Origin: Prosthecobacter sp. | Lineage (GTDB): Bacteria > Verrucomicrobiota > Verrucomicrobiia > Verrucomicrobiales > Verrucomicrobiaceae | Reading direction: 5' to 3' | NCBI RefSeq assembly: GCF_034366625.1 | Contig: NZ_JAXMIH010000023.1 | Coordinates: forward strand, 558,001-622,000 | DNA length: 64,000 nt | Part shown: positions 3,239-24,628 of the stretch, piece by piece | Numbering within the stretch: the first letter of the stretch is position 1 | Layout: every line of letters starts with the position of its first letter | Program-made: the position numbers and the translations under genes | The notes under the pieces: generated by a model | What the model saw: only the letters and a program-made list of their open reading frames with translations | Told to the model about the DNA's origin: nothing | The model's database searches: none

Positions 3239-3463
3239 AGCTGCCGGTCTTTACTTGAGCGCCTGCACGGCCTTGTGCGCCGTCACCTGCATCGCCGTCA
3301 GGTTTGCCATTCGGGCGGTTGATCACCTGCGTTCATATCACTCATGAAGTCATTTCATCCTCCCAGCCAGCGGGACAAAGCATCGCGGGTTGCCATCAGG
3401 GAGGGGCGGGTTAGTCTGGCCGTCCTGCGCCCGGCTTTGTGGCGTAGTCCTTGCTTTAAAACC
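3239..3463. other. Intergenic region before zwf
   Basis: About 225 bp with no convincing gene. The minus strand holds one 19-codon frame (3251-3310) that could be the end of a decayed gene but is too short to identify. An in-frame ATG at 3344 would lengthen zwf by 40 residues of unconserved-looking sequence, so this stretch is taken as the leader of zwf. Confidence 0.5.
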
Positions 3464-5005: not shown

Positions 5006-5041
5006 GGCGTGATCAAGTCGGGTTCTTTTTTCCGCAAGGCT

Positions 5042-8000
5042 TCAGTATGTGGCGATGCGCAACCTGACGTAACCCTTCGTGTTGGAGGCGCTCATCGCCG
5101 GAGTGACCCGCACGGTAACGGTTTCAGTGACGCCGTCACCCGTCGGCGCGATGGACATTTCCTGAACGCTGGCCCCTGTGTCATCCCAGTTCGTGAGGTT
5201 GGTGCTGGTTTCCACCGTGTAAGCCAGGCCGGAGCGCTGGATGCGGCGGCGGAACTGCATGCTGAGGTATTTGGCGTTGGTTCCTGAATCTGTCTGCACA
5301 GTTGCGGCAGGAAGCATGGAGTGCGCATTGGGAGCCCCGGCAGGGATGCCGAGAGCATGCTCGACGAGAGAATTGATGCCATTGTTGTTTGGATCGCCTG
5401 CCGGCGTGGTGATGCGATAGACGATGGCTGTCACATTTGCGGTGTTCGGCGGCACGGCATTGTCGCTGGCAGTCACGGTGATGGAATTGCTGCCGTCCAC
5501 AAGGCCGGTGACATTGCGCGTCCAGTTGGCGAAAGCATTGGCGGTGGTGGCAGCGTTTCCTGCGACAGTCACCGTGGAGACTCCGCTGGTGGCGTCCGTC
5601 GCGGTGCCGGTGAGTGTGGCACTGGCGTTTGCGGTGGTGAGATCAGGAATGCTGAGCACCGGCGGACTGGCGTCCTGGGTGGAGGAGGTCGTCGGAAACC
5701 AGGCGCTCGTCCAAGGCTGCACCCCCTGGCGGCGCATGCGTGCGCGGTAGTGATAGGTCTGCCCGTCCACCAGGCCTCCAAAGGTGGTGGTGGAGCCGAC
5801 CAGGAAGCCGCTGGAGACCGGGGCGGCGAAGTCCGGCGTGGCGGAGCGCTCCAGTTCATACTCCAGACCTGCTGCGGGCAGATTCCATGCAAGCGTGTTT
5901 GCCAGCCCGCCAGTGAAGGCGGGTTCAGCCGTGAGCACGAAAGCGGTGGGGATGACTTCGAAACTGTTCGAGGTTCCCGTCAAGGCGGCGTCGGTCGCGG
6001 TCACCGTTACTGAGTCCGCCGTGGAGCCGAGGGTGAGGTTTCCGGTCCAGACACCGTTGGTGAAGGCCGAGGTGGTCGCCGGACTGAGCGGGTGGTAGGT
6101 TGTCATGCCCAGTTGAATGTCGGCGATCCGTGAATCACCGAACGCGGGTGGCGTGATGCCGCTCCAGGTCAGGGGTTCGCCATAGGTGGTGGTGCTGGTG
6201 TAGTAGTTGATGGAACGTCTGCTGCCTCGGTCGGTGCCGTACACCGTGGGCCGGTTTAAGGTAGTGGGGGATGCCACGCGGTAACTGTAATCCACCATGA
6301 GGTTGCTCACGCCGTCATAGGTGAAAGGAGTGGTGAAGGTGAACGTGCGGTATCCTGTCGTGCTGACCGTGATATTACCTTGATACACGGTGGTGAAACC
6401 GTCGGTTTCCCAGATCAGGTCGTTCAAGTTTAGGCTGTAACCAGTGCGGGCGGTGTGTTTCAACCGAATGGTGAAGTCCGTGAAGGTTACCGCCGTCGGC
6501 GCGGCGGTGACATTGAGGGCCACTGAGGTGATTGGTCCTTCCGTCACGCCGATCTCACTGGAGAGATGCACTTGCTGGCTGCGGCACTTGGTGAAGAGCG
6601 TGTTGAATGGAATGGCAAGGTCGGTGACTGATCCGGTGCCGATAGTGCGGGTGGAGGTGCTGAGAGGGGCGTAAAGCGCCGCTGAACCAGAGTAGGAAGT
6701 CACGGTGTTCCCCACAGCATCCTGGGCAGTGATGGTGACCGGGAAAGCGTCGTTCGCCACCTGAGGCGGGGAGATCGTGTCCCAGGCGAACCTGGACATC
6801 GCGCCAACGGTGACGGCAAAAGCGTTGCTGCTGCCGCTGCCGCCGGTGACGGGATCCGTGAGCGTCAGCACGGCGTTGCTGGCGAAGCTTCCGACCGTCA
6901 CAGGCTGTGATTTCACTCCTGAGCTGAAGCCGGAGATCGTGCCCGGCGAGGCGGCAAGCGAGGTGCCGCCATCCGATGCAGTCAAAACAGGACTGCCGTT
7001 GTAGCCGGTGATGGTGACGTTGTTCACATCACGCGCCGTGAAGGTGACGTTGAACGGGGCATTTCGCACCTGCGTGCCGCCAACTGTGGAAACCAGGAAG
7101 TTGTGAACATCGTCATCCGTGATGGAGATGTTTGTCTCGCCGCTGGCGGCACCGGCGGCACTGGCCGTGATGGTCACGCTTTGCGTGCCGTCTTTGAGTG
7201 TGTCGTCCATCAGGCTGAGCGTGAAGCCGACGGAGGTTGATCCCGCGGGAATGGTAACTGTGGCGGTGGTGGGCGAGGCCTCGGTAGTGTCGTTGGAGGC
7301 CAGGTTCACCGTGGTGGCAGCGCCTTGGGCCGCTGAGATGGTGACGGTGCCGGAGACGCTGCCGGCGGACTCGGCCGCGGAAGCAGGAAGCGTGACTCCT
7401 AAAGTGAGAGGCGGAATGACGGAGAAGGTGTTCGAGAGGCCGGAAAGAGCGCCTCCCGCAGCTTGCAACTGGATGTTCGAGGCGGCGGATGGAATCGTCA
7501 CGTTGCCGGTCCAGACGCCTGCCGTGAAGGAACCTGTTCCAGTCGGAGAAGGAATGATGGTGGAAGCCGCTCCAAAGCGGATGTCCGGGCGGGTGGTCGT
7601 GGTGTAATACCAAGGCGAAGTTCCCGTCCAGGCGAGCGGATCGCCGACGGCAGCCCCCGAGTAGTACATGGTGCGCGCCAAGGAGCCGGTGGTGGCGCGT
7701 ACGTAGCCTCCCGTGGCATAGGAGGAGCTGGCGTTGTTGAAGCTGATGTCCACCATGACGTTTTGCACCCCGTTGTAGGCGAAGGGGGTGGTAAACGTGA
7801 AGGTGTTCCAGCCGGTGCTGGAAAGGGTCTGATTTGACTGATGGCATGTGGTCCAGCCGCCGGACTCCCATGACACACCGCCGGAACCGTAGTCTGACTT
7901 GGTGATGTGGCGCATGCGGATGGTGAAATTGCTCATCGCCACCGGCGGCAGGCTGGTCACGTCCAGCGCGATGGAGGTGATGTTGCGCGCGGCGCCCGCC

Positions 8001-11000
8001 TCCGCGGCGGTGTAAATGACTTGGGTGCGGACGTCGTCGTAATATGTGTCGAGCGGGGAGCTGAAGGTGGTGCCCGCAGTGCCCAAACTGACTAGGTTTG
8101 GCACGGCAAGCGTCGCCGTGCCGGTGTAAGTGGGCACCGTGTTCCCCTGGGCATCCTGCGCCACGATGGTGGTGGAAAACGGCACGGTGGTGGTTTGCGG
8201 CGAGGCAATGGTGCTGAAGCCGAATTTGGTGTGGATCCCATACGTCACGCCAAACGCGTTGCTGTTGCTTGAGGCCGCGGCGGCCGCATCCGTGACAGTG
8301 ATCACCGCGTTCGTGGCAAAACTGCCGATGCTGATGCCCTGAGTCTTCACACCACCGGAAAAGCCGGACAAAGATGCTGGCGTGACCACCAGTGAGGTGG
8401 CTCCATCCATCGCAGAAAGCGAGGGTGTGCCGCTGTAGTTCGTGATCGTGACGTTGTTCACGTCGCGGGCGGTGAAGGTGACATTGAAGGGGGCGTTGCG
8501 AATCTGCGTGGCGCCAATGGCCGAGATGAGGAAGTTGTGAACGTCATTGTCGGTCACCGTCAGGTTGCGCGTGCCGGCGGTGAAGCCGGATGCCGCGGCC
8601 GTGATGGCAAAGGTCTGCAAGCCGTCTTTGCCGGTGTCATTGATGATGGTGATGGCAAAGGTCGTGCTGCTGGACCCAGCGGCGATGGTGGCGGTGGCTG
8701 GAACGGTGGCCTCGGTGGTGTCGGCGGAGGCGAGCGTGACCGTGGTGGCGTCCTGCACCGGATTGGAGGACGTGAGTGTGGCGGTCAGAGTGCCGCTACC
8801 TTCCGCCACGCTGCTGGTGAAACTGAGGCTGAGCACAGTGGTTTCGTTGTCGGTGATGGAGATGGCGGTGCTGCCGCCTGTCCACCCCGCCATGCTGGCG
8901 CTCACGGTGACGTTTTGGGCGAAGTCGATGAAGGAGTCATCGACGGGCGTGATGGGGAAAGTGGCGCTGGTGCTTCCGGCGGGAATGGTGACGCTGGCTG
9001 GCACGCCAAGCTCGGTGGTGTCGCTGGAAGTCAGCGGCAGGGTGACATCAGAGCCGGCGGCAGTGCTGAGAGTGACCGTTCCCGTGGTGGCGGCAGCGTT
9101 TTCCGCGAGCGTGGCGGGCAGGCTGAGCGTGATCGTCGTCGTTTCGTCGTCCAGCACGCTCAATGTGCTCACACCGGCGTCGTAACCCATCACGGAGGCC
9201 GTGATGACGGCGCTCTGCGTGCCGTCCAGCAGGGCGTCATCGACGACCGTGACCGGGAAGGTCACGCTGGTCTGCCCGGCCGGGATGGTAATCGTGGCAG
9301 GCACGGTGGCGGCGGCCGTATTGGTCGAGTTTAGCGTCACGGCAAGATCGGCAGCAGGCGCGGAAGCGATGCCGACTGTGGCGGTGAGCGGCGCGGTGCC
9401 TTCGGTGGCGGTGGGCGCCATGGTGAGAGTTAATATGCCAGTGGTGGTGACGCTCACTGTGTTGGTGACACCACGCGATCCCGAGGAGGTGTCGGTGGCG
9501 ATGGCCACGACGTTGCTGCCAGAGGCGCCATAGGACAACTGGCCGCTCCAAGCTCCTGTCGTGAACGGCGAGGCCTGCTGCGGACTCAGGTTGATGGGGC
9601 TGTAGGAGATCAATCGCAGGTTGGGCATCTGCGAACTCGATGTTCCCAATGGAGTTGAGCCACTCCAAGTGTCCGGTGGCAGATTTCCCGATGTAAATCC
9701 ATAAAGGGCCGAACCACCGCTGAACGTGTATCTAGCCTCAATCCGGTTGTGGAAGCCTGCTTTGTTGCTGCTGATGTCCACCATCAGGTTGTTGGTGCCG
9801 TTGTAGTCGAACGGCGTGCTGAAAACAAACTCACGCCAGCCAGTCTTGTTCATGTTGACGGTGCCTTGGAACACAGTCGTCCAGCCAGTGCTGTCCCAAC
9901 TGCTGGTGCTGGTTAAAGACGTGTGCTTCAGGCGGATGATCAGGTTGGTCAGTGTGACCGCAGGATAGCTGGCGCTGGGGGTGGTCATGTCGAAAGCCAG
10001 CCCCTGTAGCTTGCGGGCGCTGGCGCCGACGACCGCCGCAGTATAAATCATCTGGCAGCGGTTTTGCGGGTAGTAGCCGCCGAAAGGATACCAATCGGAA
10101 CTTGTGCCCGTCCCCGCAGTCGCAGTGGTGTAATCCTTGGCGGCCTGGAGCGTGGCCGGTCCTGCATAATCTGCCACAATGTTCTCATAAAAGTCTTTGG
10201 CTGTCACCGTAGCGCTGAAGGGTGTGCTGGCGGCCTGCGGTGATGGCACGGCGGCCCAGGTGAAGTGATCCAGCGTGCTGTGGGTCGTGTTGAAGGCGTT
10301 GCTGCTGCCGGTGCGGCTCAGCGCATCGGTGGCGGTGAGCACGATGCCGGTGGTGACCTGGTTGAAGGCCACATTGCCGGTCCAAACACCGGAGCTGAAG
10401 CTGCCGCTGATTGCAGGCGTGACGGGCACAACACCGCTGCTGCCTGTGGCGCTGAGATTAACCGTGCCGGTATAGGCGGTGACGGTGCCGCCATCCGCTG
10501 CGATCGCGGTGATGGTGACGCTGACCGGCGCCCCCGCCACTGGCGTGCCGCTGATGGTGGAGATGCGGTAAGCGCTGACATCATTGTCAGCAACAGCGAC
10601 GATTGTTCCGGCCGGGCGGTAACTGGCCGCCGAGGCAGAAACGGTGGCGTAGCGCGTCCCAGTGGAGACTGAGTCCTCCGGGGCGGTGGCGGTAAAGTAG
10701 CCGTAGTTTGACCCTGCGGACACAGTGACGGTGGCCGGCACGGTCAAGAAGCTGGAGTCAGAGGAAAGACTGACAGTGACCGCCGAAGCAGGCGCGGTGC
10801 TGATGTAAACGTAGTTACTGCTGTAGGTGCCGCCTTCCGACAAACCGTAGGTGTAAATGGAGAGCGCGGGCAGCGCATCGTTGTCGGTGACGCTGACCGT
10901 GGCGGTGCCAGATGTCCAGCCCGAGGCGCTGGCGGTGATGACGGCGTTCTGGGGGCCATCGACGAGGGTGTCATTCACGACAGTGACGGTGAAATTCACG

Positions 11001-14000
11001 CTGCTGGCATTGGCAGGCAGGGTGACGGTGGCGGGGACGGTCAGCTCGGTCGTGTCGTTCGAACTGAGCGACACGGTGACGGTCACGGGCGAGGTGGCGC
11101 TGGCATTGAGCGTGGCGGTGAAACTGGAGGAACCTTCCGCCACGCTGGCGGGCGTGGTGAGGGTAAAGGTGCCGCCGTCATTGTCGGCGATGGAGGCACT
11201 GGTCGTCACGCGGGTGTATCCGGGCGCGACGGCGGTCACGGCGACGGTTTGCGTGCCTTCGATGACACTGTCATCAATGATGGTGACGGGAACGGACACG
11301 CTGGTCTGTCCTGCGGGTACTGTGACAGTGGCTGGTACGGTCATTTGGGCCGAGTTCGCGTTGCCAAGGCTCACGGTGACGGCGGAGACGGGCGCGGCGG
11401 GAAGCGTGAGAGTGCCGCCATTGGCCACGGTGCCGTTTCCTTCCGCCAAGGTGCCGAGGAAGGTCAGGGCGAGCGCGCCGCTGGAGTTGAATGCGATGGC
11501 ATTCGAGTAGCCGGAGATCCCGGTGGCTGGATCGTCCGCAGCGAGGAAGACGGATGCCCCCGCTTGTTGCACGGCGATGCCACCGGTCCAAGACCCATTG
11601 GCAAAACTTCCTGTGGCGGTCGGCGAGATCGCCGCTGTCTGGACGCTGCCGGTGCCGCTGAAGCGCATGTTGGGCAGGTTGGTCGAGGTGATGGGGGTGG
11701 GGGTGGTGGTACCACTCCACAGCAACGGATCGCCATAGCCGCTGTCGGTTTGATACCAGATCGAGCGGGGAGTCGTGGTGGTGCTGGAGCGACAATACCC
11801 CTCGCTGGTGTAGTTTGAGTTATTGAAACAGATGTCCACCATGAGGTTACTGCTGCCGTTGTACACGAAGGGCGTGGTCAACGTGAAGGTGTTCCAGCCG
11901 GTGGTGGAAACCGTCTGTGTCGTCGAATAAACAGTGGTCCAGCCGGTGGAATCCCACGAGGCGCTGGAGTTGTAGTCCGCCGTTGCAGTGTGTTTCATGC
12001 GGATGGTGAAGGTATTCATCACCTGGCCGGGAATGGTGCTGACATCGAGCGCCACGGAGTTGATCGTCATCGCGCCGCCAACCTCGGCGGGCGTGTAGAT
12101 CATTTGGCTGCGCTCATCGTGGTAAAAAGTGCCAAGCGGGAAGTTTGCCGTCACGGTCCCGGTGCCCGAAGTGTTCTGCACGGAGCTGGTGGAAGAGACC
12201 ACCAGCGGCGTGGCATTGGTGAAGCGGACATTGAGCAGGTTGGTCGTGAGCGAGCCAAGGGGCGAGGATCCCCAAGTCGTGGGCAGACCGGAGGAGGTGG
12301 TGCTGGTGTTCAATGACAGGGAACGCGTGGCGGCAGCCGTGGTGTACTGGCAGGTGGAGGCCGTGCCAGTGGCGGTGTTACCAAAGCTGACATCGACCAT
12401 CACGTTGCTCACCCCATCATAGTCGAACGGGCGGGTGAAGACGGTGTTCTGCCAGCCTGTGGTGTTGAAAGTTCGTGTGCCGCTGAAGACCGTGGTCCAG
12501 CCGCTGCTGTCCCAGGTGGTGCTGGAAAAGGACGTGGCGGAGCTGTGCTTCATGCGGATGGTGAAGTTGTTCAGCACCGTGCTGCTGCTGGTCAGGATGT
12601 TCAGCGCCAGGCCGGTGAGCCGCCGCGCCGCGCCCATCTCTGACTGGAGATAGAGACTCTGCGTGCGCGCATGCGCCGAGCTGCCCAGCGGCGTGCTCCA
12701 GCTCAAGGTGCCGGCGCCGATGGTCAGATCTGCGGTTGTGTTGAAGGCCTTGAGGTTCGCCGGGCCGGTGTAGGACGCCAGCGTGTTGCTGGCGGCATCC
12801 TTGGCTGTCACCGTGGCAGTGACCGGACTCTCGACCAACTGCGGACCGCTCAACGCGGACCAGTCGAAGCGCGACAAACCACCCGTGCCCAGCACGTCGA
12901 ACGCGGCGCTTTGCGCGGTGACGTTCTGCGCGTCCGTGGCAGTGATGTTGACGTCGGCGGCACTCGCGGTGAACAGTGCGTTGAACGTTCCCGTGCCGTT
13001 CACAAGCGTCACCGACGCGGGTGTCATGGCGATGGTGCCAGCCGCATTCGCCGCCGCGAGGCTGAGCGTCTGGTTGTTCGTGGAGATGATGCTGTCGTCG
13101 ATGTTTCGTGCCGTCACACTCACGCTGAAGGACGCGTTCGCCGTCTGCGGGCTGCTGACGGGGCCGAAGAAGTAGCGGTCCACCTCGTCATCCACCACGG
13201 AAACAAAACGTGTGAGGGTCGGATAGCCGGGCGCGCTCAAGGTGAGGGTCACGGACTGGTTGCCATCCTTCACGGCGTCATCCTGTGGCACAAAGGCCAG
13301 GGTGGTGATACTGGAGTTCGCCGGAACGGTCACTGTGACGCTATTGCCGCCTGCGGTTGATGTGTTTGGAGCCAGGAGCAGCTCGGAGGTGTCGTTCACG
13401 CTGAGCGTGACCGGCACATCCACGCTGGTGGTGCCGCCGAGCGTCAGGGTGACGGAATAAGGAACCGCGCTCTCACCCGCCGCGGAGGAGTTCAATGTGT
13501 ATGACAGCGTCTCGTTGTCCTGCACCGTGGTGGAGGCGCTGCCGGTGGCATAACCGGCGGCCGTGGCCGTGGCCGTCACCGGCTGCGGGCCGTCGATGAG
13601 CGTGTCATTGACCACCGTCATCGCAAACGTGGCCGAGGTGGCCCCGGCGGCGATCGTCACGCTGGCCGGCACGGTCAGCTCGGTGGTGTCGTTGGAACTG
13701 AGCGTGACTGTGAGCGCCGAGGCGGCTGGCTGGTTGATCGTGACGTAGGCATTGCCGGGCGCGGTGGTGCTTTCGCTCAAATTCGCCGGCAAGCTCACCG
13801 CCAGTGTCAGCGCCTCGTTGTCCGTGACGCTCACGGTGGCCGTGCTGGCGGTGTAATTGGCCGCGGAGGCCGTGATGACGGCATTTTGCGGTCCGTCGGC
13901 GATTGCGTCGTCAATCACGTTCACGGTGAAGTCCGCCGATGCCGCGCCGGAGGGAATGGAGACGCTCGTCATGACCACCTCGGCTTCCGTGGTGTCGGAG

Positions 14001-17000: not shown

Positions 17001-20000
17001 GAGCTCGTCTCAGTCAGTACATTCGCCGCCATATCCCACACACCGAGCGTCTGGCCGGTGCCGCCGTAAGGCGCGCTTACCGGCCCGCTGAACACACCTG
17101 AGGCAAACGACGTCAGCGTTGCGGGGGAGGCGTCACGGATGGTGCGGGAATTGAAGCGCAGCAGCGGACGTGTGGCGCTGGAAGACTTCGACGGGGTGGT
17201 GCTGGTCCACAGCGTCGGATCGGCGTTCACCGTGCTGCTGCTGCTCACCGCCGCATAGGCCACGCAAGTATATGCGGCGTTGATCGCCGTGAGGGATGGA
17301 CTCCAGTTCGAGTTGGCCGTGTTGGAGTGGATGATCTCCATCAGCACATTGGAGTTCCCATCGAATGGAAAGGAACTGGAGAAGGCGAAATCCACCCAGC
17401 CGGGGCTGCCGACGTTCAGCGGGGCGTCATACACGGTCTGCCACCCGCTGTTGTCCCACGCACTGGCAGACGACACCGCAGTGAGGGCGGTGGGCTTCAA
17501 ACGAATCATGAAACGAGTCAGCGCGGGTGGCGGCGAGAGGAAATGTAGCGACATGGAAGACAACATGCCCGCCGTGCCAAGTTCAGACGCCCGGACCAGG
17601 ATGACCGAACGTTCGCGATTGTAGCCGCTGGTCAGCAATGGCAGGTTCGTGGTCGTCGATCCAGCAAACGATCCCACCATCACCGTCTGTGCCGCGCCGA
17701 GCTGCACCAGCCGCGCCGGGCCGGTGTAGGTGGTCAAAGTCTGGTCGAGCGCGTCCTTTGCCGTCGCGGTGAGCGTGAGCGGCGTGTTCGCCTCCTGCGG
17801 GCTGGAGACGGGTGAGAGCGCGAAGCTGGCCAGTGCTCCGGCATCCACGACAAAGGTGTTGCTTGTTCCGGTGGCGGCTCCCGAGGCGGTCGTGATCGTT
17901 TGGGCGGCGGATGAGTTGTTGAGCGTCACATTGCCAGTCCACGAGCCGGCGGTGAAGGCGGTGGTGGCCCCGGGCGTGATGGTATTTTCTGCGGCGGTGA
18001 GCAACGCGGTGCCGGTGAAGCCGCTGACAGCATCGCCACTGGTGTTGCGGGCGGAGATCGTGACCGGGAAGGCTGTGGCGGCCTTTTGCGGGCTGCTGAT
18101 CGTCGCGAAGGCAAACACCGCCAGCTCATCATCACGCACGCTCACATTCATAGTGCCGCTGGTGAGGCCTTCGAGGCTCGCGGTGAGTGTTACAGGCGCG
18201 TTCGCTTCCACCGTGCTGTCATCCACGGCTGTGATCGCAAAGGTGGCGCTGCTTTGACCCGCCAGCACCGTCACTGTGGCAGGAACAGTCAACGATGACG
18301 TGTCGGACGAGCTGAGCGTGATGATCGTGTCTGCCACCGCCTGCCCGCCGAGCGTCACGGTGCCTGCGGCAGGCACCACTCCCGCATTTTCCGCGATGGT
18401 GGCCGGCGCTGCCAGCGTGATCACCGCCGGTTCATTGTCATTCACCGTCACATTGGCCGTGCCGCTGATGAAACCAGCCGCGCTGGCGGTGAGCGTGACG
18501 GTTTGCGGCCCGTCGAGCAGTGTGTCGTTCACCACCGTCAGATTCGCCGTTACACTCGTCTGTCCGGCGGGAAGTGTGACCGTGGCCGGCAAGGTGGCCT
18601 CTGTCGTGTCGCTGCTGGCCAGTGTGATGATCAGCGTGCTCAACGGCGCGGAGGCGGAGGTGATGGTGATGTTCTGCACCGTCTGTCCTTCCGTCACGCT
18701 CTCGGGCGCGGTCAGCGTCAGTACGACTCCTTCGTTGTCCGTAATACTGATCGTGCTTGGAGCTGATGCTGCGCAACCCGGCGCGATGGCTGTGATCGTG
18801 ATGCTATGCGTGCCTTCCACAAGCGCGTCATCGACAATGCTGAGGTCAAAGCCCGCGCTGATGGCCCCGGCAGGGATCGTGACATTCGCCACGCCGGCCT
18901 GTGTGTACGAGTTCACCAGGAAGCTCACCGTGGTGTCCGTCGCAACCGCCGCGGGCATGCTCACCGTGCCGAAATTCGCCAACGTCCCGGCTCCCTCCGC
19001 CGCCGTGGCGCCTGCGGTGAGCGTGAGTTGGCCGTTCGGCGCGTTCACGATGAACTGGCCGCTCTCGCCGAATTTCCCGCCGTTTTCACTCGCACGCAGG
19101 CGCAGGTTTTGCGCGGCACCCAGCACCTGCATGCTGCCGCTCCACACACCGGCGGTGAAACTGGCCGTGGTCTGCGGTGTGACAGCGGGTGCGGACGTGC
19201 CAGCGGTGAAAGGAGGTGTGAGACCGGCGTTTTGTGTTCCGGGTGTGGCGGCGAGCAACTGCCAGTCCGCGCCGCTGTTGTTGTCGCGGCTGCCGGTGCG
19301 CTGGTAAGTCATGCTAGCAGGATTGGTCGTCACGGTGGGCAGGCTCGATCCATTCCAAGCTTCAACGGGCAGCGGCACGGTGACACGTCGCGGATCCCCG
19401 CCCACGCAGACAAAGTCCACCACTTCGTCACGGGCATTTTTGAGGATGACGAAGGAGGACGTTGCCATGCTTTGCTGAAGGGGAAGCCCCGTACGGAAAA
19501 GCGGATAAGCCCCCGGCGCGGTGCCGGACTCCATAACGCGGAAAATGCCGCCTGCCGCCACGGTGGTGCCATTCGGAATCGTGAAAGTCAGATAGGGCGC
19601 CGGGAAGGAATTGAACTGCGTGAGCAGCACCTTCCAGCCGGAGACATCAACTGGAGCGTTGGTGACGTTGGTGAACTCAAACTCGTCCGTCGTCCAGGTG
19701 CTGTGCTCAGTGATGAGTACGCTTGGCTGCGTTACCGGTGGCAGCACGGCGCTTAAATTTGCCGTACCGGTGAAACCCGCCGCCACATGGCCCAGCGCGT
19801 CCAAAGCCGTCACCGTGACCGGGATGTCGGTGCTGCTGTTTTGTGGCGAGGCGATGCCGCCCCAGGCGAACGAGGCCACATTTCCTGCGGCAGGCACGCT
19901 GAACTGCCATACCGCCCCGGGAATAATCTGCGCGCCGTTCTTGGTCACGACCTGCCAGTAATAAGTCGTGTCGAGGGTGAGGTCCGACAGTGTCCAGGAG

Positions 20001-23000
20001 GTTGTGGCGGTGTTGCCGAGCAGTTCCGCAGGGCCGGGTGCTGGATTCGTGCCGAAATAGACATCGTAGGTCGAACTGACGGGGCGCTGCTGCAGCGTGA
20101 CTTCATCCAGCAGGACGTTCAGGATGGCGCTGCCGGAGGCCACGACGAAGGCGATGCGCACATTGCGCCCACGCCATGCGGACAGATCTGCCGAGCGGGC
20201 CGCCCAGTCCTGGAACAACGCGTCCCCTGGCGCGGTCGTGTAGGCTGTCGTCAGCACCGTGTCGGTGGACGGGTCGCGGATTTCTACACGATACTGCTGG
20301 GTGGAGGAGTAAGCGGTGCCGGTGTTGCGGATGCGCTGCATCCATTGCAGCACCGGCGCGGGACCGTCCGGCGGCACCGCCACATCCTGCCACATGCTCC
20401 ATGTGCCGCTGGAATTGCCCGGAGCGAAAATCATCGACGACGTGCCCGCGTAAGGTGGCGTGGGCGTGTCGTTGCCCGAAGGATCCAGCGATCCGTTTTG
20501 CAACTTGAACATCGGTCCGCCCGGCACATTGAAGCTCCATCCGTTCAAACCGCTCTCAAAGCCGCCGTTGGCGATCAAATTGCCCTCCGAGGTGCTCCAG
20601 GCCAGGTCGGCGGTCACCGGATTGTTCGTTGAGAGGTGAGACGGACGCGGGTTCCACGCAGCGGGGGCGGCCTCGTCGTCATTTACCGCCGTGACGAGCG
20701 TGCCGTCGATAAAACCGGGCGCGCTGGCGGTGATGATGACGTTTTGCGGCCCGTCGGGGTCCGGATCGTTCACCGCAGTCATGTCAAAGGACACCTGCGT
20801 GGCTCCGGCGGGCAGGGTGACGCTCGCCGGCACGGTCAGTTCGCTGGTGTCGTTGCTGGCAAGGGAGATGACCACGTTGCTCTGCGTGAAGCCGTTGACC
20901 GAGATGCGCCCTGCTCCTGCGCGCAGGCCATCCGTCTCGTTGATGGCCGGGACTGTCATCGAGAGCACGAGATTCGCGTTTTCATCGTCCAGCATGCTCA
21001 GGGTGTCAGATCCTGTGGTCCAACCGTTCACGCTGGCGGTAAAGGTGGCGCTGCGCGTGCCGTTGATGAGGCCGTCATTGGTCAGGGTGATGAAAAACTG
21101 CGTGGAGCTCTGCCCGGCAGGAATGACAACGGTGGCCGTCACGACGGCGGCGGGGTTCGAGGACTCGAGCGTGATCGTGACGGCAGCATCCACAGCGACC
21201 GGAACGGACACCGTGCCGGTGAGCGAGGAACTGCCCTCGATGCCATTGAGCGGCGCATCGACGGTGAGCACCGCCGTTTCATTGTCATGTACAGTCAACG
21301 CGGCCGTGCCGGCCGGGAAGGCGGCTGCAGTGGCTGTCAGCACCACCGTCTGACTGCCATCCAGCAGCGCGTCATCGACGATCGTGACGGGTATGGTGAT
21401 CTGGCTGGTATTGGCCGGCACGGTGACGGTGGCGGGCAGCAAAACATCCGCCGTGCTGGCACTGAGCGTCACAGTGAGCGCGGAGGTCGGTGTTGGCGTC
21501 ACATTGAGTGTGGCGGTGACGTCCGAGGCACCTTCCGTCACCGCCTGCACCGGCAGGGAGAGGGCGAGGTTGTTGCTGATGGACTGGGCAATGAGAATAT
21601 CATCAATGGCGATGCCGTCCGTGCTGATGCCGTAGTTGTCGTATTGGTTGAAGCGGATTTTGAAGCTGCTGGTGTAGTTCAGACCGCGTGCTGCGACGGC
21701 GGCATCAAGATCGACGGTGTACTTGGTCCAGGAGCTCGAAAGGCTGCGCAGGCCCTGCACTTCATACCAGGTGGTGCCGCCGTCCGCGCTGATGGCCACG
21801 CCGTCAAAGTCCGCGCCATTGATGAACGGACTGGTGGGCGGGCCGTGCGAATCCTCGCCGAAGCCCTTGGCCCAGAAAACCAATTCCACATTGTTCTGGC
21901 CGGCGAGGTTCACGGTGAGCGTGGCCTCATTACGAGCGTAGGTGGTGTCGATGGAGGAATCCATCGTGAGATGATTGCTCGCGCGCGGGGCATTGGCGGC
22001 AGTGACCTGCGTACGGAAGGGGCCGGTGCCGGTGACCGTCCACGCGCCGGAGAGCGTGGGCGCATCAAACGGTTCAGCGAGGATGGTGACGCGCAGCGGG
22101 TCAACAGTCAGTGACACCTGCCGCTGGATGACCGCGCCGCTGGTGGTGTTGGTGAAATCGATCATGGCGCTGTAGCTGCCAGGGGCCAGATTGTTCGCCG
22201 CAGCGGAGAAGGAGGCTGTGATCGAGTCATTCGCACCACCAGCGAGCGAGCCTGCGGTGCGGGAGAGCAGCAGCCAGGGCTGGCTGGCACTGGCGGTCCA
22301 GTTTAGCGCTGCGGTGCCGATGTTATTCAGCGTGATGGCGCGCGAGGCCGGCGCAAACGGGCCACCGAGCACGCCCGTGGCCACGAATGGTGTGGCAGGT
22401 GAAACCTGCAAGTCATCCGGGATGTCATAGGCCTCCACCACTCCCGTCGTCGTGCTGTTCACAGGTCCGCTGGCGCTGGCGCCCATGCCGCGCTTGGCGA
22501 AGCCGGCCCACAAATAGTTGGCATTGGTGCCCGCATTGTTCACCAAGTCCGCCTGGATGATGGCGTCACGCGCCTGGATGAAGGTGGGGTTCGCGGGCGT
22601 CAATTTGAGGCCGTCGGTCACGATGCGCAGCATCAGTTCATTGCCCACCGCCCAGCCGCGTGCAGTGATGATGTTGGCACGGCATTCCATGAGCATGTTG
22701 CACCAGACCTCCCCTTGAGCGTGGTATTGCGAAGGATCACCATTCGATGAACCGTAGCGCGGGCTGAGCGAGATGCCGGTGTGCGGGCTGGCCTGCGTCG
22801 GGTCGATGTCCTTGTAGGTCAGCGGTGCCTTCGTCATGTCTGTGCAGTAAGGATAGCGGCGCAGGCCATGGTAATAATTCGTCGTCATCCCGCTGAGCAG
22901 ATAGGTCGAGTAACCCGCCATCGGATACACGCCGTTCACATTGTCCGTGGCCTCGCTCTGCAGTGACATGGCGTAGAAGTCCGACCAGCCTTCCCCCATG

Positions 23001-24628
23001 CCGCGGGACTGCCATGCGCTGATGCCGACACCACCGCCTACGAGGCGGTTGCTGATGCCGTGGCCGTACTCATGCACCACGATGTCTCCGTCAAAGGAGC
23101 TGTCGCGGTCCGGTGCCGGCCCCGGCCAGATGTACATCTGCATGCGGCCTGGAGAACCGTCGCTGGGCGTGGAAAAGTTCGCATTGTTGGTGCCGCTGCC
23201 GTCTTGCGCATCCGCCTGCACAGCATCGTTGCCGTTGCCGCCACGTCCGAAGTTGTTGGTCTGAAAGTTGCCCGCGCTCTCCGTAAAACCCAGTTGGTAC
23301 ATGCGGTCGTGAATCCAGTTGTTGTAGTAAAAGAGCTGCGTCACCGTCGCGTCGCGGTAAGCCGTCGGTTCCGAGGCCGAGTTGAAGGAGAAGTCAAACA
23401 CGCGGCTCGGTGAACCTTGCGGACGCGGCGTGTCGGCAATGTTGTCCGCGTTCAGATCAAGGTGCGCATCGACGTTGTTACCCACCGTCTCATTCTGACC
23501 GTCGGGAATCCATCCTTCGGGGGATGCGGTGGTGTTCAATGCCTGCGTCGTCACCAAAGAACGCGCGACTTCCGCTGGCTGCGTCGAGAGCGGCGTGTTG
23601 TGGCCCGGCGTCATCGGCGTGGGGCTGTCACCGGTGAACACGCGATACGAAGCGTTGCTGATGTCAGCCGTCAGGCTCTGGCGCACGAGGATTTTTCCGT
23701 CCTCGGCATCGATGAGCAGACGGAACATCTCGTTTTGCTGCAAACTGAATGTCTCGATCTCCCACGCCAGTCGCAGCGTGTCCTCATCTATCGGCACCCA
23801 GCTCAGGTGTGCTGCTGTGTCGCTGAAGCCGGGAGCGGTGAGCTTCTGCGCTTGCTCAGCACCTTGTACGGTCGAGTTCGGCGTAACTGCGGCCTGTTGC
23901 AGATCACCGCCCAGGCTCTTTGCCACGTGGGTCATCGCATCGGCAACGTTCAGCGGTGGCTGCGGCACCAGCTTGACTTGCTCTCCGGCTGCTTTGACCG
24001 GATCTCCCATGAAATGGCTTCCCAGCGTCACCAGGTCGCCGTTCTTCGTCAGATTCGCCTTCAGGATCGTCTGGAACACCGGCACGCCTGCCACCTCCTG
24101 CTGCCAGACCACCGTCCGCATCCCGCTGTGTGCGGTCACATCCTCCCTCGTCACTCGTGCGTTTCCTGATTGCAACGCCGCTGCGCCATGGCCGAACAAC
24201 GCCGCATGCTTTGTCACAAAAACGCGCACCGGTGCATGTGGATCCTTCACATCAGGCTGCGCCTTCGCCAGAAATCTGCCTGCCGCCATGATGTGGCTGG
24301 GCGCGCCCGTAATCGGGTCAAAATCCACTTGTACTCCGGGCACCTCACGGCGTAGAGCCGCCAGTGCTTCGGCACGTTCCACACTTGTCGTAGTGACGGC
24401 TTTCGATTCACGTTTGTCCATCTCGCCCAGCCGCTCTTTTTTTCGATCAAGGATGAAGAGGCTTTTTTTGGCGGGCTTGGCAGCCTCGGCCACGGTCTCA
24501 ACCGATGGCCTTGCGCCTGGTTTTTCCGGTGCTTCGTATGGTTTAAGCCTTATCCATAATAGGGCCAGTGCCAGCAGGAGCAGAACAGAGGCGACAGGCA
24601 GCCAATATTTTAGAGGTGAAAATTTCAT
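5042..24628 (-). CDS. Giant secreted M36-type metallopeptidase with Calx-beta-like and repeated modules
   Basis: A single frame of about 6,528 residues. The ATG at 24628 is preferred over one at 24706 because it puts a hydrophobic stretch (WLPVASVLLLLALALLW) right at the N-terminus as a signal or anchor. A propeptide-like region is followed by a fungalysin (M36)-type peptidase: HEYGH at residues 519-523 (two zinc His and the catalytic Glu) and a third-ligand motif GEGWSDF about 25 residues later. Then come three Calx-beta-like repeats, a jelly-roll-like domain, an FN3-like domain and a lamin-tail domain (about 1640-1790). The rest alternates triplets of Calx-beta-like repeats (about 19 in all, ending DNE/DDE/DND), Ig-like units starting 'SSPQ', and eight copies of an unnamed module. 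The C-terminus has FN3-like and Ig-like units, an EF-hand-like DPNNNG, and a 'YTVETSTNLTNW' tail. It is probably a surface or secreted protease/adhesin; the substrate is unknown. No frameshift is visible. Confidence 0.9.
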   Translation of the reverse strand: MKFSPLKYWLPVASVLLLLALALLWIRLKPYEAPEKPGARPSVETVAEAAKPAKKSLFILDRKKERLGEMDKRESKAVTTTSVERAEALAALRREVPGVQVDFDPITGAPSHIMAAGRFLAKAQPDVKDPHAPVRVFVTKHAALFGHGAAALQSGNARVTREDVTAHSGMRTVVWQQEVAGVPVFQTILKANLTKNGDLVTLGSHFMGDPVKAAGEQVKLVPQPPLNVADAMTHVAKSLGGDLQQAAVTPNSTVQGAEQAQKLTAPGFSDTAAHLSWVPIDEDTLRLAWEIETFSLQQNEMFRLLIDAEDGKILVRQSLTADISNASYRVFTGDSPTPMTPGHNTPLSTQPAEVARSLVTTQALNTTASPEGWIPDGQNETVGNNVDAHLDLNADNIADTPRPQGSPSRVFDFSFNSASEPTAYRDATVTQLFYYNNWIHDRMYQLGFTESAGNFQTNNFGRGGNGNDAVQADAQDGSGTNNANFSTPSDGSPGRMQMYIWPGPAPDRDSSFDGDIVVHEYGHGISNRLVGGGVGISAWQSRGMGEGWSDFYAMSLQSEATDNVNGVYPMAGYSTYLLSGMTTNYYHGLRRYPYCTDMTKAPLTYKDIDPTQASPHTGISLSPRYGSSNGDPSQYHAQGEVWCNMLMECRANIITARGWAVGNELMLRIVTDGLKLTPANPTFIQARDAIIQADLVNNAGTNANYLWAGFAKRGMGASASGPVNSTTTGVVEAYDIPDDLQVSPATPFVATGVLGGPFAPASRAITLNNIGTAALNWTASASQPWLLLSRTAGSLAGGANDSITASFSAAANNLAPGSYSAMIDFTNTTSGAVIQRQVSLTVDPLRVTILAEPFDAPTLSGAWTVTGTGPFRTQVTAANAPRASNHLTMDSSIDTTYARNEATLTVNLAGQNNVELVFWAKGFGEDSHGPPTSPFINGADFDGVAISADGGTTWYEVQGLRSLSSSWTKYTVDLDAAVAARGLNYTSSFKIRFNQYDNYGISTDGIAIDDILIAQSISNNLALSLPVQAVTEGASDVTATLNVTPTPTSALTVTLSASTADVLLPATVTVPANTSQITIPVTIVDDALLDGSQTVVLTATAAAFPAGTAALTVHDNETAVLTVDAPLNGIEGSSSLTGTVSVPVAVDAAVTITLESSNPAAVVTATVVIPAGQSSTQFFITLTNDGLINGTRSATFTASVNGWTTGSDTLSMLDDENANLVLSMTVPAINETDGLRAGAGRISVNGFTQSNVVISLASNDTSELTVPASVTLPAGATQVSFDMTAVNDPDPDGPQNVIITASAPGFIDGTLVTAVNDDEAAPAAWNPRPSHLSTNNPVTADLAWSTSEGNLIANGGFESGLNGWSFNVPGGPMFKLQNGSLDPSGNDTPTPPYAGTSSMIFAPGNSSGTWSMWQDVAVPPDGPAPVLQWMQRIRNTGTAYSSTQQYRVEIRDPSTDTVLTTAYTTAPGDALFQDWAARSADLSAWRGRNVRIAFVVASGSAILNVLLDEVTLQQRPVSSTYDVYFGTNPAPGPAELLGNTATTSWTLSDLTLDTTYYWQVVTKNGAQIIPGAVWQFSVPAAGNVASFAWGGIASPQNSSTDIPVTVTALDALGHVAAGFTGTANLSAVLPPVTQPSVLITEHSTWTTDEFEFTNVTNAPVDVSGWKVLLTQFNSFPAPYLTFTIPNGTTVAAGGIFRVMESGTAPGAYPLFRTGLPLQQSMATSSFVILKNARDEVVDFVCVGGDPRRVTVPLPVEAWNGSSLPTVTTNPASMTYQRTGSRDNNSGADWQLLAATPGTQNAGLTPPFTAGTSAPAVTPQTTASFTAGVWSGSMQVLGAAQNLRLRASENGGKFGESGQFIVNAPNGQLTLTAGATAAEGAGTLANFGTVSMPAAVATDTTVSFLVNSYTQAGVANVTIPAGAISAGFDLSIVDDALVEGTHSITITAIAPGCAASAPSTISITDNEGVVLTLTAPESVTEGQTVQNITITSASAPLSTLIITLASSDTTEATLPATVTLPAGQTSVTANLTVVNDTLLDGPQTVTLTASAAGFISGTANVTVNDNEPAVITLAAPATIAENAGVVPAAGTVTLGGQAVADTIITLSSSDTSSLTVPATVTVLAGQSSATFAITAVDDSTVEANAPVTLTASLEGLTSGTMNVSVRDDELAVFAFATISSPQKAATAFPVTISARNTSGDAVSGFTGTALLTAAENTITPGATTAFTAGSWTGNVTLNNSSAAQTITTASGAATGTSNTFVVDAGALASFALSPVSSPQEANTPLTLTATAKDALDQTLTTYTGPARLVQLGAAQTVMVGSFAGSTTTNLPLLTSGYNRERSVILVRASELGTAGMLSSMSLHFLSPPPALTRFMIRLKPTALTAVSSASAWDNSGWQTVYDAPLNVGSPGWVDFAFSSSFPFDGNSNVLMEIIHSNTANSNWSPSLTAINAAYTCVAYAAVSSSSTVNADPTLWTSTTPSKSSSATRPLLRFNSRTIRDASPATLTSFASGVFSGPVSAPYGGTGQTLGVWDMAANVLTETSSFNVTSAALRGVAGITGTVTANAAPAADLTVNLTAMDAADVTLPASVTILAGSNTATFAVTTVDDPLIEPTETVTVTAAGAGYDAGGGSFTITDNDGATLTVTLPASVTEGGASDTGTVTASSAPLYPVTINLTATPSGLVTVPASVTLPAGQTSVTFSVSAVNNTAIDGTRNATVTASTSGWTNGSATVDVLDNETLNLALSLSTTTPREGAGTISGTVALSGTTSSAMTVNLTSDDTSEATVPATVTIPAGASSAGFTLTIVDDALTDGTQPVTLTASALDFTNGTLALQVLDNDVAGFASATVPNPQIRNAPFSITVNAVDVNGALIPGFAGTVALSAANGVGAIAMTPATSGSFVNGTWTGNVTATQAGTGVVITADGGGGLTGMSNSFDVLAAGSMTQFAVSTISSPQMSGTEVPLTITAQDAAGNTITGYNGNVSFSAAGPSGADVVTGTGTFTTTTVLGSTSHDSRNQSIFTPAEVGAARTLRSMAFEVVTLPDRVLSNFTLRLKHTTKTDYSAAGSGVFETTGWTTVYQANQSLVSGWNTFTFPNGFSYDGVSNLMVDISYDNPAAGTISGTVRYTSAAASKALYATSSSTNGDPLTWNGSTSPLSSSTTTRLNLRFSGHTPVTVTPAASGSFAGGVWNGSVTFASSGPSVMLKAVNGAGIQGQSGSFTLNGSVPDHFEFASIASPQTVGTAVPVTVTAKDANNMPVTGFTGPAVLSGAEQALKAQVGTGSNTTSTPLGSQNKAQRMQVIYTAAELGAARRTLTGLDLNATTAPGSTLTGFTIRVKHTTKADFTAAGTAVWESTGWTTVFQSDVTIPAAGWTSFPFTTPFEYDGSRNVMVDFSYNNAATGTVQGFVQYTTAAANRTILRQTNADEGSPLAWHEWSAPVPTASTAVPNARFSSSSTVSITPVVTDGFTQGVWSGSVTVNQPKPGVQLTANTAGFSGTSHAFNVNPLGALSITLAAAAEEGAAPLTGTITRTGATTDALTVDLASSDTTEAEVVMTSVSIPSGAASADFTVNVIDDAIADGPQNAVITASAANYTASTATVSVTDNEALTLAVSLPANLSESTTAPGNAYVTINQPAASALTVTLSSNDTTELTVPASVTIAAGATSATFAMTVVNDTLIDGPQPVTATATAAGYATGSASTTVQDNETLSYTLNSSAAGESAVPYSVTLTLGGTTSVDVPVTLSVNDTSELLLAPNTSTAGGNSVTVTVPANSSITTLAFVPQDDAVKDGNQSVTLTLSAPGYPTLTRFVSVVDDEVDRYFFGPVSSPQTANASFSVSVTARNIDDSIISTNNQTLSLAAANAAGTIAMTPASVTLVNGTGTFNALFTASAADVNITATDAQNVTAQSAAFDVLGTGGLSRFDWSALSGPQLVESPVTATVTAKDAASNTLASYTGPANLKAFNTTADLTIGAGTLSWSTPLGSSAHARTQSLYLQSEMGAARRLTGLALNILTSSSTVLNNFTIRMKHSSATSFSSTTWDSSGWTTVFSGTRTFNTTGWQNTVFTRPFDYDGVSNVMVDVSFGNTATGTASTCQYTTAAATRSLSLNTSTTSSGLPTTWGSSPLGSLTTNLLNVRFTNATPLVVSSTSSVQNTSGTGTVTANFPLGTFYHDERSQMIYTPAEVGGAMTINSVALDVSTIPGQVMNTFTIRMKHTATADYNSSASWDSTGWTTVYSTTQTVSTTGWNTFTLTTPFVYNGSSNLMVDICFNNSNYTSEGYCRSSTTTTPRSIWYQTDSGYGDPLLWSGTTTPTPITSTNLPNMRFSGTGSVQTAAISPTATGSFANGSWTGGIAVQQAGASVFLAADDPATGISGYSNAIAFNSSGALALTFLGTLAEGNGTVANGGTLTLPAAPVSAVTVSLGNANSAQMTVPATVTVPAGQTSVSVPVTIIDDSVIEGTQTVAVTAVAPGYTRVTTSASIADNDGGTFTLTTPASVAEGSSSFTATLNASATSPVTVTVSLSSNDTTELTVPATVTLPANASSVNFTVTVVNDTLVDGPQNAVITASASGWTSGTATVSVTDNDALPALSIYTYGLSEGGTYSSNYVYISTAPASAVTVSLSSDSSFLTVPATVTVSAGSNYGYFTATAPEDSVSTGTRYATVSASAASYRPAGTIVAVADNDVSAYRISTISGTPVAGAPVSVTITAIAADGGTVTAYTGTVNLSATGSSGVVPVTPAISGSFSSGVWTGNVAFNQVTTGIVLTATDALSRTGSSNAFNTTHSTLDHFTWAAVPSPQAASTPFSATVTAKDFYENIVADYAGPATLQAAKDYTTATAGTGTSSDWYPFGGYYPQNRCQMIYTAAVVGASARKLQGLAFDMTTPSASYPAVTLTNLIIRLKHTSLTSTSSWDSTGWTTVFQGTVNMNKTGWREFVFSTPFDYNGTNNLMVDISSNKAGFHNRIEARYTFSGGSALYGFTSGNLPPDTWSGSTPLGTSSSQMPNLRLISYSPINLSPQQASPFTTGAWSGQLSYGASGSNVVAIATDTSSGSRGVTNTVSVTTTGILTLTMAPTATEGTAPLTATVGIASAPAADLAVTLNSTNTAAATVPATITIPAGQTSVTFPVTVVDDALLDGTQSAVITASVMGYDAGVSTLSVLDDETTTITLSLPATLAENAAATTGTVTLSTAAGSDVTLPLTSSDTTELGVPASVTIPAGSTSATFPITPVDDSFIDFAQNVTVSASMAGWTGGSTAISITDNETTVLSLSFTSSVAEGSGTLTATLTSSNPVQDATTVTLASADTTEATVPATATIAAGSSSTTFAITIINDTGKDGLQTFAITAAASGFTAGTRNLTVTDNDVHNFLISAIGATQIRNAPFNVTFTARDVNNVTITNYSGTPSLSAMDGATSLVVTPASLSGFSGGVKTQGISIGSFATNAVITVTDAAAAASSNSNAFGVTYGIHTKFGFSTIASPQTTTVPFSTTIVAQDAQGNTVPTYTGTATLAVPNLVSLGTAGTTFSSPLDTYYDDVRTQVIYTAAEAGAARNITSIALDVTSLPPVAMSNFTIRMRHITKSDYGSGGVSWESGGWTTCHQSNQTLSSTGWNTFTFTTPFAYNGVQNVMVDISFNNASSSYATGGYVRATTGSLARTMYYSGAAVGDPLAWTGTSPWYYTTTTRPDIRFGAASTIIPSPTGTGSFTAGVWTGNVTIPSAASNIQLQAAGGALSGLSNTFSVIPPLTLGVTLPASAAESAGSVSGTVTISAAQGAATTVNLASNDTTEASPTTATVTIPAGSTSVGFTLSLMDDTLKDGTQSVTITASAAGAASGETNISITDDDVHNFLVSTVGGTQVRNAPFNVTFTARDVNNVTITGYNGSPVLTASDGGTSLAASPGTISGFSSGVKSQPVTVGSFASNAVLTLTDPVTGGSGSSNAFAVTVGAMSRFAWDTISPPQVANDAFPVTITAQDAVGNTVTSYSGSAALYAPLSTSTRTIGTGSVTDLAIPFNTLFTKCRSQQVHLSSEIGVTEGPITSVALNVTAAPTAVTFTDFTIRLKHTARTGYSLNLNDLIWETDGFTTVYQGNITVSTTGYRTFTFTTPFTYDGVSNLMVDYSYRVASPTTLNRPTVYGTDRGSRRSINYYTSTTTYGEPLTWSGITPPAFGDSRIADIQLGMTTYHPLSPATTSAFTNGVWTGNLTLGSTADSVTVTATDAALTGTSNSFEVIPTAFVLTAEPAFTGGLANTLAWNLPAAGLEYELERSATPDFAAPVSSGFLVGSTTTFGGLVDGQTYHYRARMRRQGVQPWTSAWFPTTSSTQDASPPVLSIPDLTTANASATLTGTATDATSGVSTVTVAGNAATTANAFANWTRNVTGLVDGSNSITVTASDNAVPPNTANVTAIVYRITTPAGDPNNNGINSLVEHALGIPAGAPNAHSMLPAATVQTDSGTNAKYLSMQFRRRIQRSGLAYTVETSTNLTNWDDTGASVQEMSIAPTGDGVTETVTVRVTPAMSASNTKGYVRLRIATY

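Follow-up and report, generated by a model that had tools for sequence, protein, structure and literature searches.

RTX adhesins such as AhLap of Aeromonas hydrophila, FrhA of Vibrio cholerae and MpIBP of Marinomonas primoryensis have been described, in the excerpts of the reports available, to present ligand-binding domains from split immunoglobulin (Ig)-like domains (PMC12077191, PMC10865825). According to the same excerpts, AhLap carries a retention domain at the N terminus and an RTX roll, with a type I secretion signal, at the C terminus; two of its three ligand-binding domains emerge from Ig-like split domains (PMC12077191, PMC10865825). Here, we analyzed a stretch of 64,000 nucleotides of Prosthecobacter sp. 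(Verrucomicrobiota), referred to as the window, in which one minus-strand gene (5042..24628) encodes a protein of 6,528 amino acids with a calculated mass of 668 kDa and an isoelectric point of 4.4. As far as the RTX split-domain adhesins are covered in these excerpts, the protein resembles them in being a giant, fibrillar protein with Ig-like extender repeats, a split Ig-like host and varied guests, which in the RTX adhesins comprise carbohydrate-binding and peptide-binding domains and an RTX roll. In contrast to these adhesins, the giant has no RTX array, starts with a metalloprotease domain of the M36 family, possesses eight split hosts with nine guests and belongs to the Verrucomicrobiota. 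Sequence profiles and structural models together support this anatomy and its nested sockets well.

The giant had previously been described as a metalloprotease with a long array of Calx-beta-like repeats. Such repeats are indeed present; however, they do not make up the whole array, and a plain in-line succession of Calx domains is ruled out by 14 Ig-like and eight jelly-roll domains between them, which had been missed. The second Ig-like domain comprises about 98 residues, is named SPQ after a motif of this sequence, and occurs in 14 copies between the Calx triplets. Intact copies number six; in the other eight, a guest interrupts one and the same loop. This guest is a lamin-tail domain (LTD) in the first split host, a single copy of a jelly-roll domain of about 175 residues (JR) in each of six hosts, and two JR copies in tandem in the remaining one. 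Split hosts were recognized by eye and then placed by separate profiles of the N-terminal and C-terminal half of SPQ; these replaced a first SPQ profile which had mixed the C-terminal half of the host with the start of JR and had produced 20 untidy matches. If c stands for a Calx repeat, () for an intact SPQ and (J) for a split SPQ with a JR guest, the domain order behind the M36, BACON-like and A domains reads ccc-[j2, fn3-like]-(LTD); ccc-()-(J); ccc-()-(J)-(J); ccc-()-(JJ); ccc-()-(J); ccc-()-(J); c-()-(J), followed by a linker region and a C-terminal block.

In window coordinates, and on the minus strand as all domains of the giant, the profiles place the six intact SPQ domains at 17846..18127, 15818..16114, 12893..13186, 10286..10582, 8246..8545 and 6812..7111, the second of which was also part of a structural model. 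Split host 1 (19031..19882), placed by the half profiles, harbors the lamin-tail guest (about 19193-19744). This domain had been predicted correctly, and its match to PF00932 is a borderline pass (35.1 bits when excised at a cut-off of 34.3, 28.3 bits in the scan of the half protein); it is, however, nested inside a split SPQ host like the JR copies and not placed in line. JR guests are found by profile in host 2 (17009..17836, guest 17147-17674), host 3 (14960..15805, guest 15122-15646, included in the structural model), host 4 (14111..14959, guest 14273-14803), host 6 (9437..10276, guest 9605-10120), host 7 (7406..8236, guest 7568-8089) and host 8 (5954..6802, guest 6104-6646), while host 5 (11477..12880) carries the tandem (12215-12724 and 11654-12172), the second JR of which was modeled alone. 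The copies of JR and SPQ that were scanned gave no Pfam or NCBIfam match above cut-off, and their profiles found no meaningful relative in the PDB by sequence (best E 0.69 and 0.15, respectively).

The count of about 19 Calx-beta-like repeats given in the initial annotation proved to be exact: an iterated profile built from the protein's own repeats identified 19 copies (each at E<=2e-26), arranged as six triplets (20675..21571, 18128..19030, 16115..17008, 13187..14110, 10583..11476 and 8546..9436) and a single repeat, number 19, at 7112..7405; a twentieth match at an E value of only 0.003 was dropped. Four acidic columns are conserved in 18, 18, 17 and 19 of the 19 repeats and three more in 12-13, and these columns may correspond to the ligand positions of CBD1, the Calx-beta domain of NCX/CALX. 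Among the 19 repeats, the last one of triplet 3 (16115-16408) was modeled, and this model (residues 1-99) aligned over 99 residues with the CBD1 structure 3e9t (Z 10.3, root mean square deviation (rmsd) 2.6), followed by the CBD1 structures 3gin (Z 10.1) and 2dpk (Z 9.6). The predicted fold of the modeled repeat is thus that of a Calx-beta domain, which is also the structure it was compared with, and the previous designation as cadherin-like is incomplete or incorrect. In contrast to the Calx-beta domains with which they share this predicted fold and the acidic columns, the repeats gave no match to Pfam Calx-beta, neither in the protein halves at E<=0.01 nor in two of the 19 single repeats at E<=1. 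The nearest Pfam families were LapA (PF20579) and DUF5006, both below cut-off, and the Calx profile found one match in the PDB, a protein-asparaginase chain (E 1e-4).

The region Calx-SPQ-SPQ[JR], covering residues 2741-3222, was modeled from an alignment (A6) of 22 rows, five from the window and 17 from the named loci introduced below, with a predicted local distance difference test score (pLDDT) of 93 and a predicted template modeling score (pTM) of 0.63. Within this model, the host (model range 199..482) matched residues 796-910 of a beta-galactosidase chain (6qub), a stretch presumably Ig-like, with Z 10.3 and an rmsd of 2.8. Since the 100 aligned residues are spread over a range of 284 residues of the model and matched to a target of 115 residues, the alignment jumps the guest. 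Accordingly, the predicted structure is that of an Ig-like host split by an independently folding guest. The best structural match of the complete three-domain model was the E. coli adhesin FdeC (Z 12.4, 281 aligned residues, rmsd 9.8), the high rmsd being expected for a flexible chain of domains. JR alone, modeled from an alignment (A7) of 37 rows, reached a pLDDT of 97.3 and a pTM of 0.93. At the top of its listed structural matches are tail-tip, fiber and baseplate proteins of phages (Z 9.9-11.6, with the tail tip of phage Bxb1 at 11.6), the N-terminal part of carbohydrate and polyvinyl-alcohol esterase chains (Z 9.2-10.1, with PbeAcXE, 7tog, at 10.1), and the lectin-like part of Cwp84 (Z 9.7); the carbohydrate-binding module (CBM) of FjoAcXE is listed as well (7tok, Z 8.4). 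The JR model is most naturally read as a jelly-roll binding domain. Foldseek further returned 18 predicted viral structures at E<=0.001, two of them minor tail proteins and two collagen-repeat proteins, the others bearing uninformative names or none. The closest BFVD model, which stems from an uncultured Caudovirales phage, represents an uncharacterized protein (E 1e-8, TMq 0.79, 22% identity), and JR-like domains may therefore be shared with phages.

A scan with 14 aligned M36 heads yielded 528 confirmed loci, the best 80 of which were kept as named loci; judged by their titles, two of these belong to Planctomycetota/Phycisphaerales and a few are given without phylum, the remainder being Verrucomicrobia of some kind. 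When full-length JR copies are counted and tandem JR is taken as a continuation, both SPQ halves lie within 20 residues of JR in all eight copies of the window, which is so by construction since the profiles of the two halves derive from the window, and likewise in 28 of 29 copies of the named loci and in 11 of 14 copies of loci from the wider phylum. The exception among the named loci (L135) has the C-terminal half of SPQ only. The three JR copies without host in the wider phylum (L208, L215 and L216), along with shorter hostless matches in L214 and L217, where L214-L217 are diverged, demonstrate that JR can exist alone, so that three states are seen: the intact SPQ, JR without host, and the composite.

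The guests of the relatives are more varied than those of the giant. Among 45 split hosts of the named loci with an insert of more than 30 residues, 28 contain JR, six contain LTD and 11 contain other guests, which by length and appearance fall into five of about 147 residues, four alpha/beta-looking ones of about 213 residues, one of 162 and one of 176 residues. Five of these 11 were scanned against Pfam: one of the 147-residue guests matched DUF4082 (42 bits, cut-off 28.4) and the 176-residue guest matched the InhA-like MAM domain (27.2 bits, cut-off 26.9), and no match above cut-off was obtained for two of the 213-residue guests and the 162-residue guest. The 213-residue guests, found in split hosts of L100, L105, L112 and L119, share invariant EY, IVCS....E and IGT positions; a label as GATase-like, which had been given by eye only, found only Pfam matches below cut-off and no match in the PDB by sequence and is not used here. 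Thus, in the relatives the same SPQ loop accommodates at least four guest types beyond JR and lamin-tail, which brings the types counted to at least six: JR, lamin-tail, DUF4082, MAM-like, alpha/beta-looking and one more of no assigned family.

Further indications came from trees of the SPQ domains, which were based on 95 columns and in which many copies stem from the same proteins and are not independent. For 107 domains, of which 51 are intact and 56 split, the tree required seven changes between the labels split and intact, compared to a mean of 36 and a minimum of 27 in 300 shuffles; seven changes were also counted without the columns adjacent to the junction and for the N-terminal half alone, and 12 for the C-terminal half alone. 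This indicates that hosts carrying guests largely, although not cleanly, form a lineage of their own. In the clearest case within this lineage, the host of L109, which carries LTD, is 65% identical to those of L113 and L101, which carry JR (local support 0.98), a value above the 99th percentile (59%) of 1,540 pairs of split hosts, and all three share one position, behind the first Calx triplet and an intact SPQ. Similarly, the hosts of L100 with a 213-residue guest and of L155 with JR are sisters (52% identical, support 0.85). Highly similar hosts at the same position with different guests suggest that guests were exchanged in place, and by these two cases such an exchange appears to have occurred. 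On the wider proposition, that the split SPQ is a dedicated, evolvable plug-in socket of the Verrucomicrobiota in which one loop takes at least six guest types that are exchanged between orthologous protease-headed giants and would thereby retarget a surface enzyme, we find ourselves evenly divided.

The N-terminal region fully agrees with the prior assignment of an M36-type peptidase with the motifs HEYGH and GEGWSD. The Peptidase_M36 domain (22472..23581; HEYGH at residues 519-523, GEGWSD at 545-550) matches PF02128 with 379.6 bits at a cut-off of 23.3 (E 2e-113), so that score, HEXXH and GEGWSD motifs agree on the family, and is preceded by a propeptide region (23672..24448, residues 61-319) with an FTP motif (residues 158-205; PF07504, 24.5 bits, cut-off 21). 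The head matches solved extracellular metalloproteinases at E 1e-74, and it is the only M36 domain of its genome. In an alignment of 14 heads (A4), which are 49-70% identical, H459, E460, H463 and E486 (numbered by the first row) are invariant in all 14. By eye, residues 9-27 (24548..24604) form a hydrophobic segment that may act as a signal anchor or signal peptide. A hydrophobic stretch precedes the propeptide in 65 of 77 heads examined; again by eye, an evident signal-peptidase motif is often absent from that of the giants, and in many smaller relatives the signal peptide looks ordinary. Behind the protease follow a BACON-like domain (22079..22423; PF19190, 25.1 and 30.2 bits, cut-off 25), domain A (21575..22078), for which the scan returned no Pfam family, and, downstream of the first Calx triplet, the unassigned domain j2 (20069..20608), behind which lies a weakly fn3-like stretch (fn3, 14.8 bits, cut-off 25). 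When the two protein halves were scanned against Pfam, FTP, M36 and BACON_2 scored above and LTD below cut-off, and the C-terminal half gave nothing above cut-off. Three NCBIfam families share the M36 head, namely NF038113 (dependent on the type IX secretion system), NF038112 (myxosortase) and NF038111 (rhombosortase). Membership in them was rejected, as the N-terminal 3,500 and the C-terminal 3,128 residues, taken apart, scored far below the cut-offs (390 versus 885, 386 versus 1500 and 325 versus 1700 bits) with the best stretches located within the head. In contrast to these families with their C-terminal sorting, the C-terminal block of the giant is covered by no NCBIfam model.

An array of this kind headed by a protease had been considered unusual, but the arrangement recurs in Verrucomicrobiota. 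The best 80 of the 528 loci, which are their best-scoring part, contain 81 M36 frames, 44 of which carry Calx, 34 the N-terminal half of SPQ and 21 JR; these numbers are lower bounds as the loci end at flanks of 10 kb or at contig ends. A short version with the order M36-BACON-A-ccc-(LTD)-(J) is present in three named members of about 2,570 residues (L146, L159 and L176). Of 48 genomes of the genus, 13 encode an M36 head at E<=1e-20, the genome under study being one of them. The frames comprise 1,849-6,557 residues, the shortest of which are cut by contig ends; those seen to their end range from about 2,400 to 6,528 residues, and the giant is the longest frame of its M36-headed, multi-socket kind encountered in the genus. 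JR was detected in 26 of 189 genomes of the order and in 20 of 387 genomes of the phylum searched, the genome under study again being included in both. Calx/SPQ/JR proteins without M36 exist as well, one of 1,817 residues in the same genome and others in relatives (L043, L044, L046, L048 and L050). By its sequence, the giant is a member of an M36-headed, multi-socket kind of protein of the Verrucomicrobiota.

At the other end of the protein, a linker region (5414..5953), probably fn3- or Ig-like (PF09136, 22.8 bits, cut-off 27), leads to the C-terminal block (5045..5413). Its profile is found at 22 places of the genome at E<=0.01, which bears out the prior notion of a verrucomicrobial C-terminal block, and in 15 of 19 genomes searched, including the one under study, at E<=1e-6. 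In 15 of the 22 places the block ends within 15 residues of the stop, in three within 17-28 residues, and in four it lies about 300 residues before the stop. Neither a significant NCBIfam match (14 copies) nor a Pfam match (window copy) was obtained, and the block may be a sorting or attachment domain. In three relatives, frames of 10,212-11,877 residues also match its profile. The genome encodes six secretins scoring above cut-off, which makes a type II-like export route possible; the giant is probably secreted.

Based on sequence features, predicted structures and analogy, we consider it fairly probable that the giant is a metalloprotease, secreted or held at the surface, whose stalk is modular and adhesive, and that it works like the RTX split-domain adhesins with a protease head added. 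It is not regarded as a member of the RTX adhesins, as RTX repeats were not found near the C terminus. According to this model, the Calx repeats would bind calcium and stiffen the stalk, and each split SPQ would serve as a socket that grips the guest at its two ends and makes it protrude sideways from the stalk, as modeled on the RTX split-domain adhesins. The JR and lamin-tail guests would bind polymer or glycan surfaces, with nine parallel guests providing avidity, and the M36 head, once freed by removal of the propeptide, would digest protein at the bound surface. During evolution, the hosts would stay while guests are exchanged in place, thereby retuning the target. Calcium stiffening, adhesion, targeting and a joint function as adhesin and protease are what we infer from this layout.

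A number of observations weigh against this model or against single steps of it. The RTX nonapeptide pattern has one chance match in the whole protein, at residue 463 inside the M36 domain. The pTM of 0.63 does not establish a sideways projection of the guest, and the 237 PDB matches that Foldseek returned for the three-domain model at E<=0.001 are led by long multi-domain chains, mostly at an rmsd above 20, and are uninformative. JR found no PDB match by Foldseek at E<=0.001, and its likeness to receptor- and carbohydrate-binding domains does not show a function; the alpha/beta-looking guest of about 213 residues has no relative in the PDB by sequence. The guests are perhaps not all unrelated, as one JR copy weakly matches DUF4082 (14.8 bits, cut-off 28.4), and JR and DUF4082 may be distant kin. 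In the trees, split and intact hosts are separated by seven changes instead of one, the window hosts starting at residues 1583, 2942 and 3224, for example, stand among or next to intact copies in leaf order, and the shuffles overstate significance because many copies derive from the same proteins. Guest labels among split hosts change 13 times compared to 17.3 times after shuffling (minimum 15), and are thus clustered but mixed. Finally, three M36 heads of the same genus (L062, L063 and L064, 3,822-4,002 residues) lack Calx, SPQ and JR by these profiles.

Two other functions are conceivable. The stalk itself may be the product, with M36 as a maturase that cuts itself and perhaps its neighbors during export, so that the finished protein would purely serve as adhesin or matrix. 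Such a role would fit the synthesis of FTP-M36 enzymes as zymogens, the length of the array, which is about eight times that of the head, and the Calx/SPQ/JR proteins without M36 in the same genome and in relatives; however, the active-site residues are invariant and the head remains 49-70% identical among the 14 aligned heads, although the frames vary from about 2,400 to 6,528 residues, and we regard a mere maturase as rather improbable. Alternatively, the giant might be a nutrient-scavenging enzyme released from the cell, whose guests hold the protease on particulate polymer and which has no role as an adhesin. M36 proteases of bacteria typically serve digestion outside the cell, and the similarity of JR to carbohydrate esterase domains (7tog, Z 10.1) and to the CBM of FjoAcXE (7tok, Z 8.4) is in line with scavenging. 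In our view this is unlikely, since nine inserted modules on a stalk of Calx fold would exceed what digestion needs, and since several giants have an N-terminal hydrophobic segment without an evident cleavage motif by eye.

The remaining alternatives concern the sequence itself. Thr, Ala, Ser and Gly are abundant in the protein, and low-complexity halves can produce weak profile matches, so that the split hosts might be an alignment artefact and the SPQ halves short beta-rich stretches located beside JR by chance. This is very improbable, as outside the window both halves lie within 20 residues of JR in 28 of 29 copies of the named loci and in 11 of 14 of the wider phylum, as the two halves align jointly to one domain in the search with the model, and as the trees of either half outperform all 300 shuffles; the artefact is thereby largely refuted. 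Even less probable is an assembly chimera or a decaying pseudogene. The contig belongs to a draft assembly of 30 contigs; however, the gene contains no N, its longest exact internal repeat is 24 bp, its 6,528 codons are free of stops, its third-position G+C (0.78) is like that of the neighboring zwf, opcA and acrB genes (0.77-0.80), and frames of 5,211-5,900 residues with a like domain order are present in five other genomes of the genus. For practical purposes a chimera or pseudogene is refuted, and an assembly artefact or a frameshift that splits the gene, which the initial annotation had named as possible refutations, is unlikely given the absence of N, the shortness of the exact repeats and the homologous frames.

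Frame and coding statistics likewise uphold the claim of one intact gene: a single frame without internal stop extends from the ATG at 24628 to the stop codon at 5042-5044, whereas each of the other five frames of the interval contains 64-418 stops (64 when the plus strand of 5042-24628 is read). The coordinates 5042-24628 had been given exactly, while the strand, now determined to be the minus strand, had been left out. Compared with the closest homologous head (674 codons, 70% amino acid identity), codon positions 1, 2 and 3 differ by 24, 15 and 47%, which is the pattern of a coding sequence; G+C at codon positions 1 and 2 is unlike that of zwf, opcA and acrB. Proteins of this size had been considered rare, but the gene is not the largest frame of its genome, and size alone is unremarkable here given a frame of 11,247 residues. 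The latter belongs to locus L195 (G000:C24:132415-132639), and another frame, of 6,413 residues, to locus L201 (G000:C23:367573-367680).

The gene lies antisense between zwf, encoding glucose-6-phosphate dehydrogenase (3344..5005, plus strand; PF02781, PF00479), and opcA, encoding the assembly protein of this enzyme (24757..25776, plus strand; PF10128, PF20171). A match to opcA was found in 45 of 48 genomes of the genus, and the best 30 loci were examined. There, zwf and opcA are spaced by 13-37 bases in 18 loci and by 572 bases in one, and zwf was not seen within the covered 1.5 kb or so in nine; the close spacing in the others suggests an insertion. An M36 head adjoins opcA in two of the 30 loci, the window and G176, in the same orientation. 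In G128, a different M36 protein of 4,002 residues directly follows zwf in the direction of zwf, opposite to the window, so that M36 genes adjoin zwf or opcA in three species. The closest giant, that of G190 (head 68% identical), is located inside a contig of 190 kb with its opcA on another contig, and the short flanks of this locus (L061) contain neither zwf nor opcA; zwf-opcA is thus not a fixed address of the giant. A mobile element as the cause of the position was considered and dismissed, no repeat being evident by eye at the junctions. No promoter- or terminator-like sites were found in 4900-5150. Elsewhere in the window, positions 28570-57987 comprise an efflux and metal cluster with two resistance-nodulation-division (RND) systems and their OEP and HlyD partners, two P-type ATPases and two multicopper oxidases, and positions 7-3238 encode two neighboring histidine kinases with PAS domains, of which one also has response-regulator domains.

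Very long arrays of Ig-like domains as seen here are also known from SiiE (595 kDa) and from an adhesin of Mobiluncus with 7,651 residues; the accessible parts of the reports on these two mention neither a protease head nor multiple split hosts. Similarly, no description of M36-headed split-domain giants of the Verrucomicrobiota was present among the literature matches listed. In the excerpts at hand, projection from split domains concerns RTX adhesins of proteobacteria, each of which has two or three binding domains. What is added here is the same layout in another phylum, in a protein that starts with a protease, comprises eight split hosts and shows signs of guest exchange in one loop, along with JR and SPQ as two domains for which the copies scanned have no Pfam or NCBIfam match above cut-off. 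If the proposed model holds true, new binding domains could be sought inside split SPQ hosts of giant proteins that are not annotated so far, and the SPQ loop would be a natural insertion site which already takes several folds and hence a candidate display scaffold. For the bacteria, the layout looks like a tool to grip and digest extracellular material, and the replacement of a cassette in a single loop might allow a lineage to direct one surface enzyme to another target.

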